From assembly GCA_003161835.1 (NCBI GenBank), contig PMNO01000169.1, positions 5,911-17,942 on the forward strand: a stretch of DNA of 12,032 nt. The letters are read 5' to 3'. Below, piece by piece: positions 1,069 to 11,902 of the stretch. The stretch's first letter is position 1, and every line of letters starts with the position of its first letter. The stretch is from Myxococcales bacterium. Lineage in GTDB: Bacteria > Myxococcota_A > Polyangia > Fen-1088. The notes beneath the pieces are model-generated. The model made no database searches. It had not been told where the DNA came from and was given only the letters and a program-made list of their open reading frames with translations. Position numbers and translations under genes: made by a program.

Positions 1069-1141
1069 GGGGCTGTAGCTCAGCTGGGAGAGCGCCTCAA
1101 TGGCATTGAGGAGGCCGACGGTTCGATCCCGTTCAGCTCCA
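1069..1141 (+). tRNA. tRNA-Ala (anticodon GGC)
   Basis: A full 73-base cloverleaf can be folded by eye. The 7-bp acceptor stem (GGGGCTG with CAGCTCC, one G-U) is followed by D stem GCTC/GAGC, anticodon stem CCTCA/TGAGG with loop ATGGCAT and anticodon GGC at 1102-1104, and T stem GACGG/CCGTT with the TTCGATC loop. The discriminator base is A1141. CCA is not encoded. The gene is intact, and a tyrosine recombinase gene ends about 60 bases downstream on the opposite strand, which marks this tRNA as the likely integration target. A T-rich stretch just after the gene may help end transcription. Confidence 0.97.
1105..1141. other. Candidate left attachment site (attL) in tRNA 3' half
   Basis: Tyrosine recombinases of integrative elements usually recombine within the anticodon-to-3' part of a tRNA gene and regenerate the tRNA. 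The integrase beside this tRNA predicts such a core here. No second copy of the T-loop/acceptor sequence was found in the rest of the window, so the core length cannot be set and the right site must lie outside. Confidence 0.4.
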
Positions 1142-1176
1142 CGAAATTACTTAGGTTTATTTTTCGAAAAGGCCGT

Positions 1177-1206
1177 TTGAAACGATTGGCGGTCCAATCG
1201 TTTCAA
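1177..1206 (-). terminator. Hairpin at the integrase stop codon
   Basis: A perfect 13-bp inverted repeat (arms 1177-1189 and 1194-1206, loop CGGT) includes the integrase stop codon at 1203-1205. On the minus strand it is followed within a few bases by TTTT and an A/T-rich run toward the tRNA. It could terminate the integrase transcript and insulate it from the tRNA. Its place next to the presumed attL also allows a role as a recombinase or accessory-protein binding site. Confidence 0.55.
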
Positions 1207-2276
1207 GGTGAGGAGGCGAGTCTGCCCCCATCGAGCACGGTCAACACCCGCCGCTGGCGCGCCCCGGCGATCGCCTCGGGCTTCGCGTAGCTCTCGACCG
1301 TGGTCGAGAACGACTCGTGCCCCAGAGACGAGGCGACGACGTGGGCGGAAGCGCCGTGCTCGAGAGCGAGGGTCGAGTGCAGCCCCCGCATTCCGTGCGC
1401 GGTCACCTGAGGCACCTTCGCCTCCTTGCAGATCCGCTTCACCCACTTCCTCACCCAGTCCCGCCAGTGATCGCCGAAGAGGTGCCCCTGCGGTCCCTTC
1501 CCCTCCGCGAGCCCCTTCAGGTACGGCTGCAACACCTCCGGCACCTGTAGGGTCCGCTTCCCCGCCTCCGTCTTCGCGTCGGGTATCCAGAGCAGCCTCC
1601 CACCATCGTCGAGATCTCTCGCGACCCTCGTCGTGATCTCCGACGCCCTCATCCCCATCAGCAGCGAGACGAGAGCGGCTACCGCCCCCGACTCGCCCCG
1701 CCCTGCCATCTCCGTCGCCTTCGCCACCCACCTGCGTGCTTCATCGATCCGGAGCTGAGGCTTCCCGTGCTTCCTCTTCCCGACGCCCTGCACTTCCTCC
1801 ACCGGACTTCGCGACACCCACCTCCGCGGCTTCGCACAACACCACCGAAGGAACGTCTTCGCCGCTGCAAGAATGGTCCGGTGGCTGTCCACCGAGAACA
1901 CCTTCTTCGTTCTGGTGCTCCGCTTCCGCAGCTCCTCGTAGTAACCCTCGCAGGCTCTCGGCGTGAGATCGCCGAGCATCATGTCCCTGTCGGAAAAGAA
2001 CGTCTCCAACCTGTACATGGTGTTCGCCACGGACACGGCCTTGTTCTGCTTGTCCGTCGAGAGGTACTCCTCGTATGCGTCGAGCGCTTCCTGCATTGTC
2101 TTGCGTCCCTGCTTCGCGAATTCCTTCCTCACCGAGCGGATGACTTCTTCGGCCTTTTCCTTCGTCGGATAGAACCGACTATCTCTCTCGCCTCCCGCTC
2201 CGACCACGACGACTCGCCATTGTCTTCCGATGGGATAGGGTCCGAGGACCCGCTCCCCTCTACTTCGCTGCGCCAT
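1203..2276 (-). CDS. int: Tyrosine recombinase/integrase (XerD/phage type)
   Basis: The 357-residue protein is a complete tyrosine site-specific recombinase, expected to integrate and excise the element at the adjacent tRNA-Ala. The N-terminus (about 12-55) looks like an arm-type DNA-binding region. Residues 60-160 form the SAM-like core-binding domain and 175-340 the catalytic domain. All catalytic positions are visible: Arg210 in 'LLMGMRASE', Lys235 in 'DAKTEAGKR', His294 and Arg297 in 'HGMR', His320 in 'LGHES' and the nucleophile Tyr330 in 'VESYAKPE'. The ATG at 2274-2276 is preceded by AAGGAGA (2284-2290) at good spacing. The 5' end overlaps the preceding small gene by about 148 bases. 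The gene reads toward the tRNA, so its 3' end abuts the attachment site. Confidence 0.95.
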   Translation of the reverse strand: MAQRSRGERVLGPYPIGRQWRVVVVGAGGERDSRFYPTKEKAEEVIRSVRKEFAKQGRKTMQEALDAYEEYLSTDKQNKAVSVANTMYRLETFFSDRDMMLGDLTPRACEGYYEELRKRSTRTKKVFSVDSHRTILAAAKTFLRWCCAKPRRWVSRSPVEEVQGVGKRKHGKPQLRIDEARRWVAKATEMAGRGESGAVAALVSLLMGMRASEITTRVARDLDDGGRLLWIPDAKTEAGKRTLQVPEVLQPYLKGLAEGKGPQGHLFGDHWRDWVRKWVKRICKEAKVPQVTAHGMRGLHSTLALEHGASAHVVASSLGHESFSTTVESYAKPEAIAGARQRRVLTVLDGGRLASSP

Positions 2277-2482
2277 GTTCCCTTCTCCTTTCCGGGGCGC
2301 GGCGAAACGTCAGCGCCTGGAACGTTATCACGGCCGGGTAGAAGCGGGGCCAGCTCCTTCGCCAAAAGCGGCGCGAGCAGCCGCACGAAGCGACCGAGGT
2401 CACGAACGCCGGAGGGCGTCTCGGATTCGTCGTTGGCTGGAACGCTCGTCGGGCCGACGACGTGCGCACCGCGAGCGCTCAT
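2129..2482 (-). CDS. Small protein coupled to sigma factor, overlapping integrase
   Basis: I do not recognise this 117-residue protein. Support for it being real is its start: the ATG (2480-2482) shares ATGA with the sigma-factor stop, and a GAGG (complement of 2491-2494) sits eight bases upstream. Residues about 25-50 form a predicted amphipathic helix ('LGRFVRLLAPLLAKELAPLL'). The rest is polar, Ser/Glu/Pro-rich and probably disordered, ending in a strongly basic tail ('IRRRKRPKKSSAR') that could touch nucleic acid. Its last 49 codons overlap the integrase gene in another frame, and the integrase ribosome binding site lies inside it. The position between a sigma factor and an integrase suggests a partner or regulator of one of them, such as a recombination directionality factor or anti-sigma factor, but no domain shows this. 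The overlapped C-terminal part is the least certain. Confidence 0.5.
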   Translation of the reverse strand: MSARGAHVVGPTSVPANDESETPSGVRDLGRFVRLLAPLLAKELAPLLPGRDNVPGADVSPRPGKEKGTWRSEVEGSGSSDPIPSEDNGESSWSEREAREIVGSIRRRKRPKKSSAR

Positions 2483-3159
2483 GATGATGGCCTCACGGCG
2501 ACCAGGTCGGCTCGCCGCGACCTCTCGGTTTCCGCCTCGGGGCGGTAGGGGTAGGAGGTGATCTCTTCGATTGCGGCGCGGAGGGTGACGAGCGCCCGGG
2601 CATGAAGACGTGACGCTCGGGGGCGGCCGATCCTCAGCTCTTTGGCGGCCTGGGTGATCGTCTTCTCCTGGTAGTGATGGAGCTCGACGACTCGCCGCTC
2701 GAGCACGGGCAAGCCGCGCAACGCGGCGGCAACCTGCGCGGTGACGTCCTCCGTTTCGGTCGTCGGACAGACCATCGGGCGGCCATTCCGCCGGACGTCG
2801 TTGTGGGCCCGATGGCCGGCGTCGACCGCGACCTGCCAGTCGTGACCGACGCGATCGATTCGAAGACGGCGGTCGGCGCGGCGGCCGAACCAGTGTTGGG
2901 TGCGGATGCCATCGACAATCGCGCCGTAAATCCGTCGGCGCGCGAAGGCGGAGAACGGCACGCCCCTTTCCTCGAACCGCGTGGCTGCCTCGACGAGGCC
3001 TATCGCGCCGTACGCGACGAGGTCGTCGAACTCGATGCCCCTTCCCAGTGGCCGGGCTCGGATGTCCCCGGCTATCGACTTGACCAGGTCCAGGTGAGTC
3101 TTGATCAGCCGGTCACGCGTCCTCGTGTCAGATGCCTTGGAGTCGCCGGTGCCTTGCAT
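2479..3159 (-). CDS. RNA polymerase sigma factor, sigma-70 family (FliA/WhiG-like)
   Basis: The 226-residue product would direct RNA polymerase to a specific promoter set. Residues about 13-86 are sigma region 2, with 'THLDLVKSIAGDIRAR' (core-binding helix 2.1/2.2), 'IEFDDLVAYGAIGLVEAATR' and 'FSAFARRRIYGAIVDGIR' (2.3/2.4, promoter melting). Residues about 145-197 are region 4, with a helix-turn-helix 'TITQAAKELRIGRPRASRLH' for the -35 box. The middle (90-140) does not look like a normal region 3. The size fits FliA/WhiG-type alternative factors and differs from short ECF factors. I chose the ATG at 3157-3159, preceded by GAAGGA; a longer frame would need a TTG at 3247-3249 and adds unrelated residues. 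It overlaps the next gene by ATGA and lies downstream of the TraK-L-M-like run, so it is part of the element. Confidence 0.85.
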   Translation of the reverse strand: MQGTGDSKASDTRTRDRLIKTHLDLVKSIAGDIRARPLGRGIEFDDLVAYGAIGLVEAATRFEERGVPFSAFARRRIYGAIVDGIRTQHWFGRRADRRLRIDRVGHDWQVAVDAGHRAHNDVRRNGRPMVCPTTETEDVTAQVAAALRGLPVLERRVVELHHYQEKTITQAAKELRIGRPRASRLHARALVTLRAAIEEITSYPYRPEAETERSRRADLVAVRPSS

Positions 3160-3289: not shown

Positions 3290-3745
3290 TCAGACCTCCT
3301 TGTCGGCACCGGCCGGAAAAATCAGCGGTCGCGGCAGGACTCGGTGGAACGTGTGTTGAAATACCTCGGGACGGCGCCCGTGATGCCAGCGTCTGGAGGG
3401 ACTTGGCCACTCCACGCACGACGCTCGGCGCGACGTCCCGCGTCGCAAAAACCCTATCGATTCATATCGCCCGCCGCGATTCGCCAGCGGTACGACTTGC
3501 CGCGCTCCGGTTGGGCGACGCACCAATCTCCCTTCCGGTCGAGCCCTCGAGCCGGCTGCCTGCGCGATCTGGTGCGGGATGTCCTGATAGAGCGTCTGGT
3601 AGTGCTCCAACACCATGAGAAGTGTCCAGACGGCATCCGTGGGCTTGATGTTGAGCGCGTCGCGAGCCCGGTAGAGGCGTTGCCGCTCGCCGTCCGTCGG
3701 CTGACGATCGAGGAGCTTTTCGAACGATTCTTCGAGGTCACTCAC
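3290..3745 (-). CDS. traM: TraM/MobE-like mobilization protein, probably frame-disrupted
   Basis: The first 64 residues ('MSDLEESFEKLLDRQPTDGE', then a Tyr/Arg-rich helix and a 'WTLLMVLEHYQTLY' helix) resemble the N-terminus of the small TraM-type proteins encoded after TraL in RP4-like mobilization operons. The start is GTG (3743-3745) inside the stop region of the preceding ATPase gene (GTGAGTGA, 8-base overlap), a sign of translational coupling. After about residue 64 the Arg/Pro-rich tail of this frame looks non-coding, while another frame further on (about 3360-3460) reads 'VVRGVAKSLQTLASRA', which looks more like the expected alpha-helical C-terminus. I infer one or more frameshifts near 3550 and after, so the gene may be decayed. 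RP4 TraM is known to be needed for full transfer efficiency; the exact role is unclear. The N-terminal part is well supported, the annotated 3' end is not. Confidence 0.6.
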   Translation of the reverse strand: MSDLEESFEKLLDRQPTDGERQRLYRARDALNIKPTDAVWTLLMVLEHYQTLYQDIPHQIAQAAGSRARPEGRLVRRPTGARQVVPLANRGGRYESIGFLRRGTSRRASCVEWPSPSRRWHHGRRPEVFQHTFHRVLPRPLIFPAGADKEV

Positions 3746-4421
3746 TGACGACCTGCGACAACATGGCGGCGCATTCCTCCCGCCACCGTTCCAGCTCCAT
3801 TCGATCGCCCAGCGACAGCTCGCCGGTTGCTTTCGCGATTGTCATCCGCCCCTTGTTCATGGCGTCGGTCACGCGGTCGGCGAGTTCGGGCAGGTTGATG
3901 GACTTGCTTCCTTTCCCTTCGATGCCGGACTTCATCTTGGAGCCGTTGTAGAGCTCGAACTTCTTCTCGGAGCCGAGATAGAGATTTCGCACGACGTGCA
4001 CCTCGGCTTCTGGGATCGCCGCCATGAAGTCCGACAGCAGCTCGAGGCTTTCCCGCTTCCGGTCGATCATCCAAAGGACGACCAGCTTTCGCCCCAGCTC
4101 TCCGAGCGCCTTGTTGAGCGTGCGGCCGAAGTTGCTGACGCCGGTCTGATTTCGCGCGCCGGTGTTGATGACGATCGTGCTCTCTGCCCTGCTCTCGACC
4201 AGATTGACCAGCTCGATCCATCCCTCCCTCTCGTCGAGGTTCACCAGCTCTCCGCCGGTCTCCTCCTGATAGGTCTTGAACACGTCCGGGACCGACGTAT
4301 CGGTCTCGACGAGAAACGGCTCCTGTCCGCCGGCCTGCAGAAAGTCGAGCAGGGCCATCGACATCAGTGACTTGCCCACGCCGCCCTTGCCCCCACCGAC
4401 GAGAAAGATCGCTTTCGACAT
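3738..4421 (-). CDS. traL: TraL/MobD-like ParA/MinD-family ATPase
   Basis: The 227-residue protein is a P-loop ATPase of the ParA/MinD type. The deviant Walker A 'GGGKGGVGKS' (9-18) contains the signature Lys12 and Lys17, followed by 'FLVETDTSVPD' with Asp41 in the Walker A' position. The usual Walker B acidic residue appears as Asn86 in 'IVINTGA'. Length and position match TraL of RP4 (about 240 residues), encoded between TraK and TraM on the leading side of oriT. TraL-type proteins support conjugative DNA processing, and a role in positioning plasmid or relaxosome has been suggested for the family. The ATG (4419-4421) has AAGGAT upstream at good spacing, 15 bases after the TraK-like stop, and the 3' end overlaps the TraM-like GTG start. 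A solo chromosome-partition ParA is less likely because there is no ParB gene nearby. Confidence 0.85.
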   Translation of the reverse strand: MSKAIFLVGGGKGGVGKSLMSMALLDFLQAGGQEPFLVETDTSVPDVFKTYQEETGGELVNLDEREGWIELVNLVESRAESTIVINTGARNQTGVSNFGRTLNKALGELGRKLVVLWMIDRKRESLELLSDFMAAIPEAEVHVVRNLYLGSEKKFELYNGSKMKSGIEGKGSKSINLPELADRVTDAMNKGRMTIAKATGELSLGDRMELERWREECAAMLSQVVSE

Positions 4422-4436
4422 GATTTATCCTTTTGT

Positions 4437-4946
4437 TCAGTAGCTGTCCTTGTCCTTCACGAGAAAGGCTCCCTTACCGCTGCGCAGCGCGGTGCCCTCT
4501 GGCGCCGCGCCCGCCTCCGGCGTGCTCGCCGCCTGCTTCGCGCCGGGTGGGGCTTGAGTGGTCGCGGGTGCAGGCGCGTTCGACGCCTCGCGCTTCGCCG
4601 TCTTTGGCGTCCCGCTCCCTGACCCGCGGGGGGCGGGCCGGATACCGCTCTTCGCCCGCTTCTCCGTCTTGCTTTTGGCGCGCTGAAGGTAGTTCTTGAG
4701 CGTCGGTGTCGTGATCGCGAGGCCGCGCCCGCGCAGGCTCTCGGCCACCTCTTCGATGGTGTAGCCACGTTGCTGCAGGGCGATGAGCTCGCCCGCGAGC
4801 AGGCTCACCATCCGCTGTTTGTCGAGCTTTCGTTTGGCCGGGTCCTTCGGTGGAATCGCCCGCAGCTCCGCGATCAGCCAGTTGGCGTTCTCGACGGTGT
4901 ACTCGATGGCGGGCATTGTCTGGGCAGGTTCCTTTTCCGACGGCAT
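4437..4946 (-). CDS. traK: TraK/MobC-like oriT-binding protein
   Basis: Starting at the ATG at 4944-4946 (GAGG just upstream) the product has 169 residues. Upstream alternatives at 5037-5039 (ATG) and 5070-5072 (TTG) lack ribosome binding sites. Residues 18-60 are helical ('ANWLIAELRAIPPKDPAKRK', 'SLLAGELIALQQ') and 62-90 form a likely helix-turn-helix ('YTIEEVAESLRGRGLAITT', 'TLKNYLQRAK'). An Ala/Pro/Lys-rich linker follows (95-150), then a short C-terminal 'GAFLVKDKDSY'. Context gives the assignment: it is the first gene divergent from oriT, followed by a TraL-like ATPase and a TraM-like protein, as in the RP4 traKLM order. RP4 TraK binds the leading side of oriT and bends the DNA; the same role is inferred here. 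It could also autoregulate this operon from the same gap. Confidence 0.75.
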   Translation of the reverse strand: MPSEKEPAQTMPAIEYTVENANWLIAELRAIPPKDPAKRKLDKQRMVSLLAGELIALQQRGYTIEEVAESLRGRGLAITTPTLKNYLQRAKSKTEKRAKSGIRPAPRGSGSGTPKTAKREASNAPAPATTQAPPGAKQAASTPEAGAAPEGTALRSGKGAFLVKDKDSY

Positions 4947-5257
4947 GCGGTCCTCGTAGTTCCTGTCGGCCAGTCGCAGACAAAACGTTCCCGCGGGCAG
5001 AAACGATTCGCACGCCGCTGGCCGAATGGTTCCATGCATGACGGTCACGTCTATCGAATCGGCTCTCGCCAAGCGTCGGAATCAGATAACAGGATGGGGG
5101 CTTGTCCGGACACATGCGGCTGGCGCCGCACGTGCCCTCCCAAGCCCAGCTCCGCCCCGCCCGCTCGGCGCTCCGCTTCTCTCAGGCGAGTCTCCGCCAG
5201 ACGCGAGGGTGCTCGGCGCATTCGCTTCTCGCACCCAGCAGAACGGAGGCCCGGCCG
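4947..5257. other. Divergent intergenic region containing oriT
   Basis: This 311-base gene-free gap separates the TraK-like gene (minus) from the TraJ/MobC-like gene (plus), so it must hold both promoters. It contains the nic-like motif and nested inverted repeats described separately. The stretch 4947-5088, on the leading side of nic, would be the expected TraK-binding region by analogy with RP4; an 8-base CATGCATG palindrome lies at 5033-5040. No convincing -35/-10 pair was seen in either direction. The ribosome binding site GGAGG (5245-5249) of the next gene lies at its right end. Confidence 0.7.
5089..5147 (-). other. oriT: Origin of transfer (oriT), RP4/IncP-type nic region
   Basis: On the minus strand CATCCTG followed by T (5096 down to 5089) matches the IncP-type nic consensus YATCCTG|Y, placing the predicted cut between the complements of 5090 and 5089. 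Seven bases from nic, on the relaxase-gene side, begins an outer inverted repeat (GGGCTTG 5098-5104, CAAGCCC 5141-5147). It encloses an inner one (5111-5120 and 5125-5134, 9 of 10 paired) and the palindrome TGTCCGGACA (5103-5112). In RP4 the nic also lies about 8 bases from an inverted repeat bound by TraJ, with traJ/traI on that side and traK on the other, exactly as here. The transferred strand would lead into the traK-L-M, sigma and integrase genes and bring the relaxase gene in last. Confidence 0.75.
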
Positions 5258-5581
5258 ATGCCGTTCGCTCGTAAGGGGGCGGCCGCCCTCACGGAGCGCC
5301 TCGACGTCCGCGTCGCGCCGGGAGAGAAGGAGCAGCTCCGTCGAACCGCCGCGAGCGCCGGCATCAGCGTTGCCGAGTTGATCCGGGCGCGTGCCCTCGA
5401 CCGGCCCGTCGTATCGCGCACCGACGCCACGACGATCCGCGAGCTGCGTCGGCTCGGCGGCCTGCTCAAGAAGGTCCACCTCGACAGTGGCGGCGCCTAT
5501 AACCGGGAGACGGCCTCCGCGTTGACCGCCCTCCGCGCAGCGATCGTCCAGCTTGCTGGCGGCGACGAAGGCGCGTCGTGA
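5258..5581 (+). CDS. mobC: TraJ/MobC-like ribbon-helix-helix relaxosome accessory protein
   Basis: The 107-residue protein has an N-terminal ribbon-helix-helix region: 'LTERLDVRVAPGEKEQLRR' then 'ASAGISVAELIRARALD', residues about 11-50. A C-terminal helical part with 'ELRRLGGLLKKVHLD' is typical of TraJ/MobC relaxosome proteins. Such proteins bind the inverted repeat next to nic, help open the DNA and recruit the relaxase. The ATG at 5258 is chosen because GGAGG (5245-5249) sits eight bases upstream; the open frame continues upstream to 5102 but that part overlaps the oriT repeats and has no ribosome binding site. The stop overlaps the relaxase GTG start (GTGA, 5578-5581), so the two are translationally coupled. 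Confidence 0.85.
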   Translation: MPFARKGAAALTERLDVRVAPGEKEQLRRTAASAGISVAELIRARALDRPVVSRTDATTIRELRRLGGLLKKVHLDSGGAYNRETASALTALRAAIVQLAGGDEGAS

Positions 5582-7575
5582 TCGTCAAGAAGGTGGGCAC
5601 GTCGAAGACTGGAGCGCCCAAGAGCAAGGCCTCCAACGTGCGCGCCCTGATCGACTACATCGCCGGCGGCGCGGCGGGCGGCGACGGCGAGAAGGTCGAG
5701 CATCAGGGCGCCGTCAACCTCCTCAACATCGACCACGATGGTCAGGTGCAAGAGATGATCGATCTCGCCGAGGTCGCCCGCCGCAGCCCGCAGCCGGTGC
5801 AGCACTGGATCATGAGCTGGCGAGAGGGTGAGCAACCGACGCGCGCCCAAGCGGACGAGGCCGTCGGGATGTTTCTCGCCGAGATGGGCCTTGGCGAGCA
5901 CCAAGCCGTCTATGCGCTTCACCGCGACACCCACAACTGTCACGTCCACGTCGCGATCAACCGCGTCCACCCCACGACGGAAAAGGTCGTCACTGTCAAC
6001 AACGGCTTCGACCTCGAAATCGCCCACCGTGCGGTCGCCCGCATCGAGCAGCGGCAGGGGTGGGAACGCGAAGCGCGTGGGCTCTATGCGGTGGACCTGG
6101 ATGGTGGCGCCGAACGGCTCAAGCCCCGGGATCAGCGCGAACGTAGACCGTCCGGTCGAGCCCAGGACCTGGAGGAGCGAACCGGCCAACGCAGCGCCCA
6201 GCGGATCGCCATCGAGGAGGCCGGGCCGATCATTCGACAAGCGCAAAGCTGGCGCGAGCTGAACGCCGCCCTCGCCGCCCAGGGAATGCGCTACGAGAGG
6301 AAGGGTTCCGGCGCGCTGCTCTGGATTGGCGAGCAGCCGGTCAAGGCGAGCGCCGTCGGCCGCGACTGTTCGATGGCGGCGTTGCGCAACCGACTGGGGG
6401 AGTTCGAGCCGGCGCCGTCGACGCCCGCTCGGGTCCCGGCTTCATCGCGCGCCATCGACCCATCGGCGCCCACGCTGCCCGTCTACCTCGACGCGCGCCG
6501 CAAGCACTACGAGGACCGCGCGGCCAGACGCGCGGGAGCAGCCGGTGAGCAGCGCAAGGAATGGCGGGAGCTGGTGGACCGCCACCGCAACGAGCGGGCC
6601 GACATCCTCCGCGGCTCATGGCGGGGCAAGGGCGATCTCTTGAACGCAACGCGCAGCGTGCTCGCAGCTCGCCAGGCACGGGAGAAGGCCGCGCTTCGAG
6701 AGCGCCAGCAACTGGAGCGGGCGGCGCTCCATCGCGATGCCGGTCCATTCCCTGGATATGAAGACTGGCTGGCACGCCGGGACCGCGACCAGGCGGACCG
6801 ATGGAGGAACCGCGAGCGGCAGCCCGCCACGATCGATGGCGCGACGTTCGAGCAACCTACCGTCCGCGACATTCGCGCCTTCACCGCCGTCCTCGACGGC
6901 CGGAAGGTTCACTACCACCTCGCACGATCACGTCGTCCCTCGTTCACCGACCACGGGAAGACGATCGCTATCTACGACAGTCGGACCCGCGAGAGCGTCC
7001 TCGCCGCCCTCCAATTGAGCGCGCAGAAGTGGGGGACGATCTCGGTGCGCGGCAACCGGGAGTTCATGCGCACGTGCGTCGGGCTGGCCGCCGAGCACGG
7101 CTTCAAGATCGCCAATCCCGAGCTTCAGGAGGCGCTCGCGGCCGAGCGCCAGCGGTACCGACCGCAGGCTCGGCCCGGGCCTCACACACTTGGCGTGGGC
7201 TCTCACCCACAGCCTTTGACGCTCGCGTCCATCTACGAACGGCACGTCAACGAAATCCGGCGCGAACAACCAGACGCCCGTCGGATCGATGCCTCACGTC
7301 TCGACGCCGAGGTCGCTGTCCGGATGGCCGTGACTGGTCACTCCAGAGAGCAGATCGCCAAGGCAATCATCGACGGCGCGCGCGCAAGTCGGCCCCACGA
7401 GGATCGCGACTGGCAGTCCTACGCCGGCCGCGCGGTCCAACGCGCGTTCAGTGCTCCCGGCGAGGAAGCCCAGTTGCGCCTGGAGCGTCTCCGAGACGCG
7501 CTCTTGCGGCTCGAAGGTCGCCAGGAAGAACGACAGCTCCTCCGGGGCCTTGGTGGTCCATCGAGGGGACGGTGA
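5578..7575 (+). CDS. traI: MOBP-family relaxase (TraI/VirD2-like) with LPD7 domain
   Basis: The 665-residue relaxase nicks oriT and carries the transferred strand. Residues 1-170 are the catalytic domain. Tyr27 in 'LIDYIAGG' is the probable nucleophile (motif I), 'QHWIMSW' with His76 is a conserved strand, and motif III 'HRDTHNCHVHVAINR' (115-129) supplies metal-binding His115, His122 and His124, the HxDTxNxHVHVxxNR pattern of MOBP. The middle (180-410) is charged and helical. Residues about 430-525 ('VLDGRKVHYHLARSRRPSF', 'ISVRGNREF') match the LPD7-type domain often fused to such relaxases, and 560-640 contain a further conserved 'AVRMAVTGHSREQI' helical region. The GTG start overlaps the TraJ-like stop. 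It differs from RP4 TraI in the C-terminal architecture. It is intact and expected to be active. Confidence 0.95.
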   Translation: MIVKKVGTSKTGAPKSKASNVRALIDYIAGGAAGGDGEKVEHQGAVNLLNIDHDGQVQEMIDLAEVARRSPQPVQHWIMSWREGEQPTRAQADEAVGMFLAEMGLGEHQAVYALHRDTHNCHVHVAINRVHPTTEKVVTVNNGFDLEIAHRAVARIEQRQGWEREARGLYAVDLDGGAERLKPRDQRERRPSGRAQDLEERTGQRSAQRIAIEEAGPIIRQAQSWRELNAALAAQGMRYERKGSGALLWIGEQPVKASAVGRDCSMAALRNRLGEFEPAPSTPARVPASSRAIDPSAPTLPVYLDARRKHYEDRAARRAGAAGEQRKEWRELVDRHRNERADILRGSWRGKGDLLNATRSVLAARQAREKAALRERQQLERAALHRDAGPFPGYEDWLARRDRDQADRWRNRERQPATIDGATFEQPTVRDIRAFTAVLDGRKVHYHLARSRRPSFTDHGKTIAIYDSRTRESVLAALQLSAQKWGTISVRGNREFMRTCVGLAAEHGFKIANPELQEALAAERQRYRPQARPGPHTLGVGSHPQPLTLASIYERHVNEIRREQPDARRIDASRLDAEVAVRMAVTGHSREQIAKAIIDGARASRPHEDRDWQSYAGRAVQRAFSAPGEEAQLRLERLRDALLRLEGRQEERQLLRGLGGPSRGR

Positions 7576-8186: not shown

Positions 8187-9092
8187 TCACACCCCCTGCC
8201 CCGCGAGCGCTCGGATTTCAGCCCGAAGACGGTCGGCCAGACGGTCGTTACGACCGCTCCGCGCGTCGCCGATGAGCGACCGTTCGAGCTCCGACAGATC
8301 GCGCAGCGAACCGAACCGCGCTTCGACGGTACGCAGGATTTCTCTCGCTTCGAGGCGGTCGTTGGCTCTCATCAGGCGTTGCAGATCTTGCCAGTCGTAG
8401 TCGCTGGCGTTGATCCTGGCGAACAGGGCGTCGGGGTCGAAGGGATCACGCACCTGCCACAGCTTGAGGACGGCGAGGCGCCTCAGGAGCTCGCCGTCGA
8501 AGGGCGTGGACGCGAACCGATGCAGGTCGTAGAGGTCTCGAACCTTCGCGCGCTGGAACGCGGCGCGCACCTTCTCGGCGATCATCTCGGTCACGTCGAG
8601 AGACCGAACGTCGAACAAGGGAAACTCCAGGTAGTTGAAGTAGGCCTGCGGCTTCAACGGGCGAGGCGTCGTCGTAAGCGTCGGTCGCTCGCGAAGGCTC
8701 ACCTGAAGCCGAAAGTGGCCAGTCTGATTCCACGCGTGGCGGTAGAGGACATCGCCGCCGAACGAGGTGTCGTCGTCAGTCTTGTAGTACTCGTCGAACG
8801 TGAAGGTGATGCCGTAGTGCTCTTGATTGAAGACGGCGACCAGTTCAATGAGCGCGTCGTCCGTGGCTCCGTCAGTATCCAGGGTGAAATCGAGATCCTC
8901 CGAGAATCGCCCGGTGGAACCGAAGACCGTCTTGCGAAGGCAGGTCCCGCCCTTGAACGCCAGGTGCTTGGTGACGCCCGAGTCTTCAAGCGCGCGCAAC
9001 GCGTACGTGAGCACCACATCGCGTTCGGCGACGAGCTTGTCGCGAACGCCGCTATTCCTTGCGTAGAGGTCGACGAACTTGTCAGCGATCAC
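8187..9092 (-). CDS. abiEii: AbiEii-type nucleotidyltransferase toxin
   Basis: The 301-residue protein is the toxin half of a type IV AbiE system, a DNA polymerase-beta-like nucleotidyltransferase (DUF1814/AbiEii family). Visible motifs are 'FKGGTCLRK' (46-54, motif I Gly-Gly-Thr), 'FSEDLDFTL' with Asp66 and Asp68 (metal-binding), 'EMIAEKVRAAF' with Lys174, and 'RDLYDLHRF' with Asp186. In the family this activity blocks growth, with tRNA reported as the target of related enzymes, and gives abortive phage resistance. The start is GTG (9090-9092), 11 bases inside the 3' end of the antitoxin gene, so the toxin is made by coupling to its antitoxin. All catalytic motifs are present and the protein is probably active. 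Confidence 0.93.
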   Translation of the reverse strand: MIADKFVDLYARNSGVRDKLVAERDVVLTYALRALEDSGVTKHLAFKGGTCLRKTVFGSTGRFSEDLDFTLDTDGATDDALIELVAVFNQEHYGITFTFDEYYKTDDDTSFGGDVLYRHAWNQTGHFRLQVSLRERPTLTTTPRPLKPQAYFNYLEFPLFDVRSLDVTEMIAEKVRAAFQRAKVRDLYDLHRFASTPFDGELLRRLAVLKLWQVRDPFDPDALFARINASDYDWQDLQRLMRANDRLEAREILRTVEARFGSLRDLSELERSLIGDARSGRNDRLADRLRAEIRALAGQGV

Positions 9093-9966
9093 CGGATGAC
9101 CTCGGTGGACCGAACGAAACGCGCCGCCTAGCCGGCTGACCCTTCTCGATCAGCTCTTGCTCGGGGACGTTCGCGACGACGTTCCATGGACGGACCAACT
9201 TGCCCTCGGTCCCCCATCTCGTTCGGGGACCAAAGACGACCTTGCTGCTCGGCCGCATGCGTGCAATCAAAGCCGCGCGCTGATCGGGTGGCACTGCGAC
9301 GCCGTGCAGGTCAAGCAGGTACCCGAGCCGTTGGACGAGCGCGGACTCATTCCAGCGCGCGAGCAGGTTCAGCATCGCATCCCATGAAATCTTCCCTCCT
9401 GCCCGCGACACCATTCGCGAGACCTCCGCCACACCGCCGGCGTATCGCGGCCGATCGAGCGCGTCGGCGAGGGCACGTTCCGGGGTCGCCATCTGGATCG
9501 CCTCGCCCAGAACGACCATCTCGGCGAATCCAAAGAACCGGTCCCGCGGAACCGAAACGAACACGTAGCGGGTTTCCCTCACGATCACCGAGGGGCGCCG
9601 CTCCTGGCAGGCGATGTAGGTCTCGGCGAAGACCTGCTCGGTAAACCCGTGGTGGGTGCATGCAGTGCCGAACGAAAAGAAGTAGGGCTCGACCAGGGCG
9701 GCGCCGGCGGTCAGGGGGTTGGTGTCGGCGATCCCCTCAGTTCCTCGGTTCGCGGGGATCAGGCGGTAGAGCCCGGGGCGCAGGCGTTCGAGCCAGCCCT
9801 TGCGGACGAGCCGGTGGGCAAGAAACCGAGCGTAGCTCTCCGACGCGCCGAGTAGTGCTCGGAGATCGGCGAGCGTGACCGTCCTCTGATCGCGCCATTC
9901 GAGGTCCAGGACGAGCCTGGATTCGCTCGCCGAGAGCGAACGGGACGTGTTGGTTTCTGAAATCAT
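9082..9966 (-). CDS. abiEi: AbiEi-type antitoxin/transcriptional repressor
   Basis: The 294-residue protein precedes the AbiEii toxin, the order usual for AbiE operons. Residues about 15-80 form a winged helix-turn-helix ('TLADLRALLGASESYARFLA', ending 'LRPGLYRLIP'). Residues 85-230 match the AbiEi C-terminal antitoxin region ('VEPYFFSFGTACTHHGFTEQ', 'PRDRFFGFAEM', 'ATPERALADALDRPRYAGG'). In characterised AbiE systems the N-terminal domain represses the operon by binding inverted repeats in its promoter, and the C-terminal domain counteracts the toxin without forming a stable complex. The ATG at 9964-9966 is directly downstream of an AT-rich promoter/operator and has no ribosome binding site, so translation may be near-leaderless. 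It is complete. Confidence 0.92.
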   Translation of the reverse strand: MISETNTSRSLSASESRLVLDLEWRDQRTVTLADLRALLGASESYARFLAHRLVRKGWLERLRPGLYRLIPANRGTEGIADTNPLTAGAALVEPYFFSFGTACTHHGFTEQVFAETYIACQERRPSVIVRETRYVFVSVPRDRFFGFAEMVVLGEAIQMATPERALADALDRPRYAGGVAEVSRMVSRAGGKISWDAMLNLLARWNESALVQRLGYLLDLHGVAVPPDQRAALIARMRPSSKVVFGPRTRWGTEGKLVRPWNVVANVPEQELIEKGQPARRRVSFGPPRSSGDR

Positions 9967-10291: not shown

Positions 10292-11902
10292 GTGTCCGCC
10301 AGTCTTCCGATCCCGCTGGCCAAGCAGCCGGCTTCGATCTGGCCGGGAGGAAGGCCCCCCGCCTACGCCCGCCGCCGCCCCGAACTGAGCACCTTGCACA
10401 AGGTGGTCCGCGAGAATCTCGCCACCCTGTACGCCGCCACCGAGGCCGGCTTCGACGGCACCCCTCTGCCGCGGTTCGTGAGGCAGGAGCTGGACGGATA
10501 TGTTGGCTGCGGATCGCTCAATCGGGGCTTTGCACACCTCAGATGTGAAGGCTGCTCGGACAGCCGCCTGGTCGCGTTCAGTTGCCACGGCAGAGGATTC
10601 TGCCCGTCGTGTTTTGGCAGACGCATGGCCCAGACCAGCGCGAATCTTCTGGACCACGTCCTACCTGCCAACGTTCCGCTCCGACAATGGGTGGTCACAC
10701 TGCCCCACGCGCTTCGCGCGCGCATCGCATACGACGGCGTACTCCTCGGCGCGGTGGTGCGGTTGTTCGCGGACACGGTCCTCGGCTGGTACCGCCGCCG
10801 CATGCAGATCGCGGGGGCGCCAGGCGGTCGCGGTGGTGGGATCACCGTCGTCCAGCGGGTCAGCTCGGACCTCCGCTGTAACCCGCACGTCCATGGCATT
10901 TTTGTCGATGGAGTTTTCGTACCTGCGGCCGACGGCGGCAAGCCCACCTTCCACGCCCTGCCGCACCTATCGGACACCGCCGTCGCCGATGTCCTCCAGA
11001 TCTCTCGCACCCGGATACTCAAGTTTCTGATCCGGCGGGGCGTCGTCGATGTCGCCGACGACATGGTCACCGTCACCGACGATCTCGCCGATCGCGATCC
11101 GGTTCTGGCCGCGCTCGCGTCAGCGTCGGTCTACGGCCTGCCGCCAGCGGGACCTGCGCGCCGCAAGCCCACGCTGATCGCGCTTCGGGGTCATGGCGGC
11201 CACGCCGAGCCCACCATCAAGTCCCCGCTGTGCGTCGACCACGCCGGATTCGGGCTTCACGCCGCCACCGTCGCCAGGGCCGACGACGCCCGCGGCCGCC
11301 AGGCGTTGGTCAAATATGTACTTCGGCCGCCCGTGGCCAACGAGCGACTGCAGATCACCCCCGACGGCAACGTGCGCCTGCTCCTGAAGAAAGCGTTCCG
11401 CGACGGTACCGCCGCGATAGAAATGCAGCCGCTGGCCTTGTTGACACGCCTCGCGACCGCGGTGCCGCCGCCCAAGCGGCACGTCGTCGGATATTTTGGC
11501 GTGCTCTCCTCGGCTTCGCGCCTCCGCCCCCTAGTCGTCCCACCGCTGCCTGCGTCGGCTGAGGCTGCGGCCCATCCACCGCCACACGCACCGCCTCCGT
11601 CCGCCGAGCCTGACGGCCGCAAGCCCACGCACCGGTGTCGCTACCGCCCCCTCCTCGAGCTTCTCCGTCGCACATTCGGCGATGACCTTGCCGCATGCCA
11701 GCGCTGCGGGGGCCGCATGCGCCTCGTCGCCCTGGTTCAAGATCAGCAATCCATCGACAGGTTCCTTCGGGGCATCGGCGAGTCCACCGACTTCCCGTCG
11801 CTCGCTCCCGCCAGAGGCCCGCCTTACTTCACCGTCCAAGGTTCAAGGGGCGCAAAGAACACCGCGCCTCTCGCCCCCGAGCCCATCGACGAGTCTCCGT
11901 AG
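10292..11902 (+). CDS. IS91-family HUH transposase, single-tyrosine type
   Basis: The 536-residue protein is an IS91-family (Y2_Tnp) rolling-circle transposase. The N-terminal zinc-binding region (about 70-125) carries 'RCEGC' (Cys85, Cys88) and 'SCHGRGFCPSC' (Cys98, Cys104, Cys107). 'CNPHVHGIFVDGVF' supplies the HUH metal ligands His199 and His201. The catalytic helix 'ALVKYVLRPPVANERL' contains Tyr342 but no second tyrosine four residues on, as in ISCR-like members and unlike IS91 itself. 'KKAFRDGT' and 'HVVGYFGVLSSASRLR' are further family blocks. The C-terminus has a second Cys pair, 'CQRCGGRM' (469-476), also typical. The start is a GTG at 10292 without a ribosome binding site; upstream starts are not better. 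The frame is intact. Confidence 0.9.
   Translation: MSASLPIPLAKQPASIWPGGRPPAYARRRPELSTLHKVVRENLATLYAATEAGFDGTPLPRFVRQELDGYVGCGSLNRGFAHLRCEGCSDSRLVAFSCHGRGFCPSCFGRRMAQTSANLLDHVLPANVPLRQWVVTLPHALRARIAYDGVLLGAVVRLFADTVLGWYRRRMQIAGAPGGRGGGITVVQRVSSDLRCNPHVHGIFVDGVFVPAADGGKPTFHALPHLSDTAVADVLQISRTRILKFLIRRGVVDVADDMVTVTDDLADRDPVLAALASASVYGLPPAGPARRKPTLIALRGHGGHAEPTIKSPLCVDHAGFGLHAATVARADDARGRQALVKYVLRPPVANERLQITPDGNVRLLLKKAFRDGTAAIEMQPLALLTRLATAVPPPKRHVVGYFGVLSSASRLRPLVVPPLPASAEAAAHPPPHAPPPSAEPDGRKPTHRCRYRPLLELLRRTFGDDLAACQRCGGRMRLVALVQDQQSIDRFLRGIGESTDFPSLAPARGPPYFTVQGSRGAKNTAPLAPEPIDESP
10292..11902 (+). mobile_element. IS91-family insertion sequence (ends not located)
   Basis: Only the transposase gene can be delimited. 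IS91-type elements have non-identical ends (oriIS with a hairpin downstream, terIS upstream), do not make target duplications and can carry neighbouring DNA by one-ended transposition. Neither end could be placed with confidence, so the element may reach left past the inverted repeat at 10156 and right past the window. Confidence 0.6.

Follow-up and report, generated by a model that had tools for sequence, protein, structure and literature searches.

We describe a gene for a two-domain sigma factor that lies directly ahead of a small gene and a tyrosine integrase gene, on what appears from its sequence to be an element integrated in a tRNA-Ala gene of a Myxococcota genome. With somewhat less than even confidence, we propose that this sigma factor is an element-specific regulator, placed in a variable slot before the small gene-integrase pair at a joint marked by a truncated mobE, and that it probably drives its own operon.

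The window, meaning the whole 12,032-nt stretch that was analysed (G000:C576:5911-17942, G000 being the source genome), belongs to a genome of 4.68 Mb in 734 contigs, and its features are collected in Table 1. A host gene and tRNA-Ala(GGC) occupy positions 1-1142, after which the element begins, with an integrase gene that adjoins the tRNA and is transcribed toward it. A second, exact copy of the 36-bp tRNA 3' end is found at G000:C176:1673-1708, where ARAGORN detects no tRNA; it is the attR that would be expected if insertion restores the tRNA at attL. An integrase and flanking att repeats, the marks of an integrative element, are both present, attR on a separate contig. The far side of the element would lie across a gap between C576 and C176, which are unjoined in the assembly. 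For about 100 bp next to attR, two relatives show 74% similarity, and an XRE-type regulator (G000:C176:1230-1547, L149) sits beside attR, at the element's far end.

Table 1. Features of the window (G000:C576:5911-17942), with positions counted from its first letter
Feature	Position	Strand	Basis and remarks
tRNA-Ala(GGC), target gene of the element	1069..1142	+	ARAGORN
attL core	1109..1144	+	exact 36-bp repeat; sequence comparison
terminator-like inverted repeat	1177..1206	-	13 bp, perfect, 4-nt loop, spanning the integrase stop codon; by eye
tyrosine integrase, 357 aa	1203..2276	-	Phage_integrase E 1.3e-10; PHROG integrase E 9.7e-36
small integrase-associated protein, 117 aa	2129..2482	-	no known family; start within sigma stop
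sigma factor, 226 aa from ATG	2479..3159	-	regions 2 and 4; Pfam, NCBIfam, AlphaFold2, Foldseek
truncated mobE	3290..3745	-	residues 1-64 align with pRAS3.1 MobE (212 aa), as far as 3554; best segment 61%
mobD, TraL/ParA-like	3738..4421	-	best segment 57% to pRAS3.1 MobD
mobC	4437..4916	-	best segment (78 residues) 49% to the pRAS3.1 ORF preceding mobD; start 4916 picked by hand
mobC-mobB intergenic region, putative oriT	4917..5257		nic-like CATCCTGT at 5096-5089, - strand
FliA-like site	4963..4990	-	agrees with the FliA consensus at 12 of 16 letters; lies 47 bp before mobC
mobB, NikA-like	5258..5581	+	family search; pRAS3.1 match, best segment 44%
mobA relaxase, TraI/MobA(P) family	5578..7575	+	family search; pRAS3.1 match, best segment 45%
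AbiEii/AbiEi pair, cargo	8187..9966	-	family search
IS91/ISCR-like transposase within element	10292..11902	+	family search

The two-domain sigma factor gene is certainly genuine. The original prediction, whose span of 2129..3159 takes in the small gene and the sigma gene and nothing else, had named a 226-residue protein with sigma regions 2 and 4, and both domains are confirmed above the Pfam cut-offs: Sigma70_r2 at residues 18-90 (E 7.9e-14) and Sigma70_r4 at residues 146-194 (E 5.9e-8). Read from an upstream TTG, the frame would encode 256 aa. Its third-position GC, 0.81, is like that of the element's other coding genes. As in the FliA/WhiG factors of group 3, regions 2 and 4 are present, and the best NCBIfam subfamily is theirs, but the scores of the top named models lie far below the family cut-offs (WhiG, 90.6 of 343 bits; FliA/WhiG TIGR02479, 88.2 of 189.6); the sigma70-ECF superfamily model is exceeded (75.3 bits against a cut-off of 42.9). 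Unlike group 3 factors, the protein has no folded region 3 in the predicted structure. AlphaFold2 gives confident region-2 and region-4 domains joined by a low-confidence linker (residues 92-137), in which pLDDT stays below 50 and no helix bundle is seen; profile matches leave the linker out, and no region-3 family appears among Pfam matches at E up to 0.1. WhiG (6pfj) and FliA (1rp3) are among the top PDB matches both by sequence and by Foldseek, with low TM-scores of about 0.3. Within the linker, R123, N125, G126 and R127 are conserved; around residues 121-133 (2761-2799, - strand) the family keeps a motif, N-D-x-R-x-N-G-R-P-M, for which there is neither a matching known domain nor a confidently predicted fold.

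The overlaps proposed in the original prediction are both visible in the ORF coordinates. The sigma TGA and the small gene's ATG overlap by 4 bp as ATGA (2482-2479), and the small ORF enters the integrase ORF by 148 bp (2129-2276). Translational coupling, also proposed there, can be traced further by a signature, read from protein ends, that 28 of the 120 listed sigma homologs retain (own included; 156 were found). These 28 sequences end in V-R-x-S-S or a close variant (tail A), with V in 26, R in 27, the first S in 25 and the last in 27. In the window these residues are encoded by GTGAGG, a ribosome-binding-like stretch, and by TCATCATGA, at which the small gene starts, and the coupled start thus seems to be preserved across the tail-A homologs; constant residues beside a varying x would fit selection on the start of the next gene. 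Another 39 of the 120 listed sequences carry a second tail (tail B), mostly G-E-G-V-A-R. A rule that the last sigma codon ends in A, with one exception in 120, was dropped as evidence, the rows not being independent. On a quick tree of 76 rows, which included 37 of the 39 tail-B rows and 11 of the 53 rows with other tails, tails A and B interleave with at least 7 changes, and only 5 of 72 inner branches are starred. The interleaved tails of the homologs P0001-P0086 may reflect, with weak support, recombination at the 3' end of the sigma gene that swapped one downstream partner for another.

The small protein has no family match in searches of Pfam, NCBIfam and PHROG, and its fold is predicted poorly (mean pLDDT 61.6, two helices at low confidence). 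Fourteen sequences of it were found, own included, and a profile built from 13 of them recovered ORFs overlapping the integrase start at L176, L178, L182, L183, L187 and L240. A widened profile, itself trained also on four of these first six loci, found the small gene, our own locus apart, at 11 of the 39 loci with sister integrases, namely those six together with L242, L243, L246, L247 (where the integrase match is partial) and L248. In L176, L182, L183 and L187 the overlap with the integrase is out of phase and 175-178 bp long. None of the 11 loci has the sigma gene. The small gene thus appears to travel with the integrase, also without sigma, which makes an anti-sigma role unlikely. The original prediction had suggested that the small protein could be the anti-sigma factor of its neighbour, for which the overlapping genes and the two low-confidence helices might speak; with relatives adjoining integrases in elements that have no sigma, and with no family match for the protein itself, this suggestion does not hold up, and we regard a sigma/anti-sigma pair as very improbable. 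A role as partner of the integrase, like that of a directionality factor, is more likely for the small protein than one as anti-sigma factor.

Integrase relatives at E up to 1e-20 occur in 13 of the 18 genomes of the family, own included, many beside tRNA-Ala. We took as testable those sister loci, counted by hand, at which the integrase match extends into the first ten residues and the upstream sequence is 1,400 bp or longer; 24 of the 39 fall within this rule and 15 outside it. Sigma is absent at all 24, ten of which have integrases at 45% identity or more. A weak sigma profile match at L204 (E 3.6e-4) was discounted, as it lies inside the integrase gene coordinates. Sigma is likewise absent from all five testable MobD contigs: the six that were read, including C106, gave no match at E up to 10, the sixth, G277:C28, ending directly after mobD. 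Conservation of the sigma gene together with integrase and mobilization genes, the lack of which the original prediction had itself named as counting against it, is therefore not borne out, and neither the related integrases nor the related mob modules would need sigma in general, since both occur without it. In L176, L182, L183 and L187 its place is held by genes of 248-300 aa, none with a Pfam match above cut-off, and these other genes suggest that sigma occupies a variable slot ahead of the small gene-integrase pair. Coincidences on same-sized contigs, counted with the best 120 of 1187 integrase matches and the best 120 of 156 sigma matches, numbered two for sigma and integrase against 1.7 expected, which is chance level (one of the two came from different sources), one for sigma and small gene against 0.2, and two for small gene and integrase against 0.13.

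Close relatives of the sigma factor are found mostly on short contigs. The protein search returned 156 sequences with E no higher than 1e-8, of which the 120 listed share 41-95% identity besides own; among them, 21 span the whole query at 72-94% identity. In 317 genomes of the class, a full-strength match occurs only in the source genome (385.6 bits), the next reaching 136.6 bits in two pieces, and no further close relative was seen in a phylum sample of 377 genomes. Among the best 80 of 363 loci in GTDB r220 representatives, where the source genome is possibly absent, the top identity is 35%; plasmid and phage collections hold matches only under 60% identity (19 and 6 records), and of 11 loci on viral contigs none is close across its full length. 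A tree of 81 rows, comprising 31 of the 120 listed sequences and the fetched-locus frames matching over >140 residues, with duplicates dropped, places the window sigma, the listed homologs and one divergent gene of genome G011 in a 33-row clade with support of 100/100; the program's warning on this tree concerns long branches elsewhere in it. The FliA-like genes of the family, including this genome's own copy on C716, fall outside that clade. The sigma factor is thus shown by the tree as a distinct family, with a separate origin from the host FliA-like gene.

A host-lineage ortholog, which the original prediction had named as another finding that would count against it, is not what the tree returns. 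Region 2 does resemble the FliA-like protein of the host family, but this genome has the host gene as well, at a separate locus (G000:C716) and in another well-supported clade, and the sigma gene sits between attL and the mob module; that it is a host gene standing by chance beside an integrase is scarcely credible. Around the divergent clade member, on G011:C224, no relative of the window integrase was found within the 14 kb examined; a transposase similar to that of the element (40%) lies about 3.4 kb from the G011 gene (L143).

Beyond the sigma gene, the window holds an IncQ2-type MobABCDE module with all five genes in order and divergent around oriT, mobE matching only to residue 64. The mob gene names other than mobD are our assignment from module order, the pRAS3.1 record naming only mobD. 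Like pRAS3.1, typed as IncQ2 in PLSDB, the module has a divergent five-gene layout around the oriT region and an 8-bp mobD/mobE overlap. It differs in being chromosomal and in its truncated mobE, whereas pRAS3.1 carries replication genes, and none of its 14 annotated features is a sigma gene. A relaxase gene and a nic-like site both lie in the window; one or two nic-like words would by our own estimate occur by chance in 12 kb, and 30 bp around this one are identical in the genome's second mob module, on C106. That second IncQ2-like module (G000:C106:1-3861, L226), with a MobD 79% identical, lies beside a different integrase-like ORF and has no sigma. Relatives of MobD were found in 241 plasmid records; 5 of the 317 class genomes hold nine matched places between them, own included. 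No mating-pair protein came up when the window genes were compared with protein families, the element's middle being an assembly gap. The AbiEii/AbiEi genes aboard the element are a defence pair of toxin-antitoxin type. The best explanation of this content is a tRNA-Ala integrase cassette joined to an IncQ2-like mob module, and so an element that would be both integrative and mobilizable. Past residue 64 the mobE ORF has no match, and its truncation indicates that part of the mob module is damaged.

The truncated neighbour raises the question of whether sigma itself is a decaying passenger, a remnant at a recombination joint with no present function, and several of the listed homologs do look frameshifted or partial. 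Yet the sigma ORF is intact, its domains are confidently predicted by AlphaFold2, its third-position GC does not set it apart from the element's other coding genes, and, besides the 21 full-span homologs, 25 columns are invariant across 27 aligned sequences; we consider decay improbable.

Promoter scans bear on what the sigma factor might control. We used as FliA promoter consensus what we take to be TAAAGTTT-N10-12-GCCGATAA. Over the whole window, the three best minus-strand scores (12, 11 and 11 of 16) lie upstream of mobC and sigma, and the best on the plus strand (11 of 16) falls within the transposase gene. The mobC site was equalled by 17 of 2000 dinucleotide shuffles, which is near 0.05 after correction for the six regions tried; the best site upstream of sigma was equalled by 205 of 2000 and is not beyond chance. 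Over 300 dinucleotide shuffles with the long word, the counts were 3 for mobC, 25 for sigma, 79 for mobB and 141-242 for the other three regions, and in eight sigma-free control regions (four mobC, four small gene-integrase) 45-295 of 300 shuffles did as well. With a shorter -35 word the mobC signal vanishes, all six regions being equalled by 46-210 of 300 mononucleotide shuffles (sigma 46, mobC 209). A 28-nt motif shared between the sigma and mobC upstream regions was matched by 33 of 100 shuffles; among 14 upstream pairs only abiEi-transposase (1/100; these two regions are one stretch on opposite strands) and sigma-transposase (5/100) stood out, which is unconvincing for 14 tests. Of the promoter motif that the original prediction expected element genes to share, none was found between sigma and mob upstream regions; what is left is the FliA-like site at mobC, which stands out weakly and may serve as a weak lead for sigma control of mobilization.

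In the mechanism that we propose, sigma would sit at the joint of cassette and mob module, downstream of the truncated mobE and ahead of the small gene and integrase, with which it would be co-translated. It would direct RNA polymerase to the promoter of its own operon, giving positive feedback, such that once the sigma gene is triggered, integrase and partner may rise together. A part in integrase expression is favoured by where the sigma gene lies and by its coupling. The main competing account makes sigma a cargo regulator, acquired with the integrase cassette and acting mainly on host genes, thereby altering the host. Its absence from every testable sister integrase locus and MobD contig would suit such cargo, as would the want of a convincing promoter at its own operon, the G011:C224 relative in surroundings free of this integrase, and the sigma-like accessory genes described in the available text on C. 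difficile elements (PMC3158075). Free cargo, however, would need neither a start-stop overlap within the integrase operon nor the matching end kept in the tail-A homologs, and we think this account on the whole unlikely. Autoregulation of the sigma-small gene-integrase operon is accordingly ranked first, as the most likely reading, and host-directed cargo second. A bolder extension of autoregulation is that there exists a lineage of Myxococcota mobilizable elements with its own promoter class, in which a dedicated two-domain sigma, co-translated with the integrase cassette and able to pass from one version of it to another, would switch on recombination, and perhaps the mob operon, by positive feedback and apart from host transcription; this we put forward as conceivable, if rather doubtful.

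Sigma-like genes on mobile elements are known in other settings. We take orf7 of Tn916 to lie near xis and int. This gene, annotated as sigma-70 family, is likewise on an integrative element and in the printed coordinates has a 4-bp overlap with the small orf8 (PMC9137128, in the text available). Tn916 differs in being a conjugative element of Firmicutes with an orf7 of about 140 aa, whereas here a 226-aa two-domain sigma is directly coupled to small gene and integrase. The C. difficile transposons Tn6103-Tn6105 and CTn1-like elements, conjugative or mobilizable, carry predicted sigma factors, Tn6105 together with a mobilisation protein; in the available portion of that account the factors lie in accessory modules and are compared with TcdR, a -35-binding domain being what can be recognised in them (PMC3158075). 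That sigma factors are not standard in mobilizable elements, as first asserted, is thus too strong, given Tn916 and the C. difficile transposons (PMC9137128, PMC3158075, as far as their available text goes). By analogy, SigN (ZpdN) of pBS32 in Bacillus subtilis offers a worked precedent, being an element-encoded sigma with its own consensus and positive feedback; it differs in being on a plasmid, LexA-controlled and linked to cell death, and the available sections of the source describe no integrase coupling (PMC6751061). One streptococcal IME carries a sigma-70 gene, and the IMEs studied are described as awaiting the activator of a helper element (PMC5704250, in the part available).

Literature searches on element-, ICE- or island-encoded sigma factors returned only phage and plasmid cases among the matches listed, and an integrase-coupled two-domain FliA/WhiG-like sigma factor on a Myxococcota mobilizable element was not found among them. 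If sigma does drive the integrase operon, excision would be set by a dedicated polymerase subunit, as against the helper-activated IMEs of the available account (PMC5704250). The system would then offer a simple setting, open to testing, in which a minimal two-domain sigma factor serves one operon, and a handle on mobile-element regulation in uncultured Myxococcota.

As to the insertion site, a search of relatives for an empty copy gave no attR right flank beside tRNA-Ala, and the left flank matches G001 and G005. In a genome of the same genus (L188, G001:C175), tRNA-Ala is followed 2.46 kb on by a truncated tRNA 3' end (881-905 and 3338-3362), a pattern that reads as if another small insertion had entered the same tRNA-Ala site.
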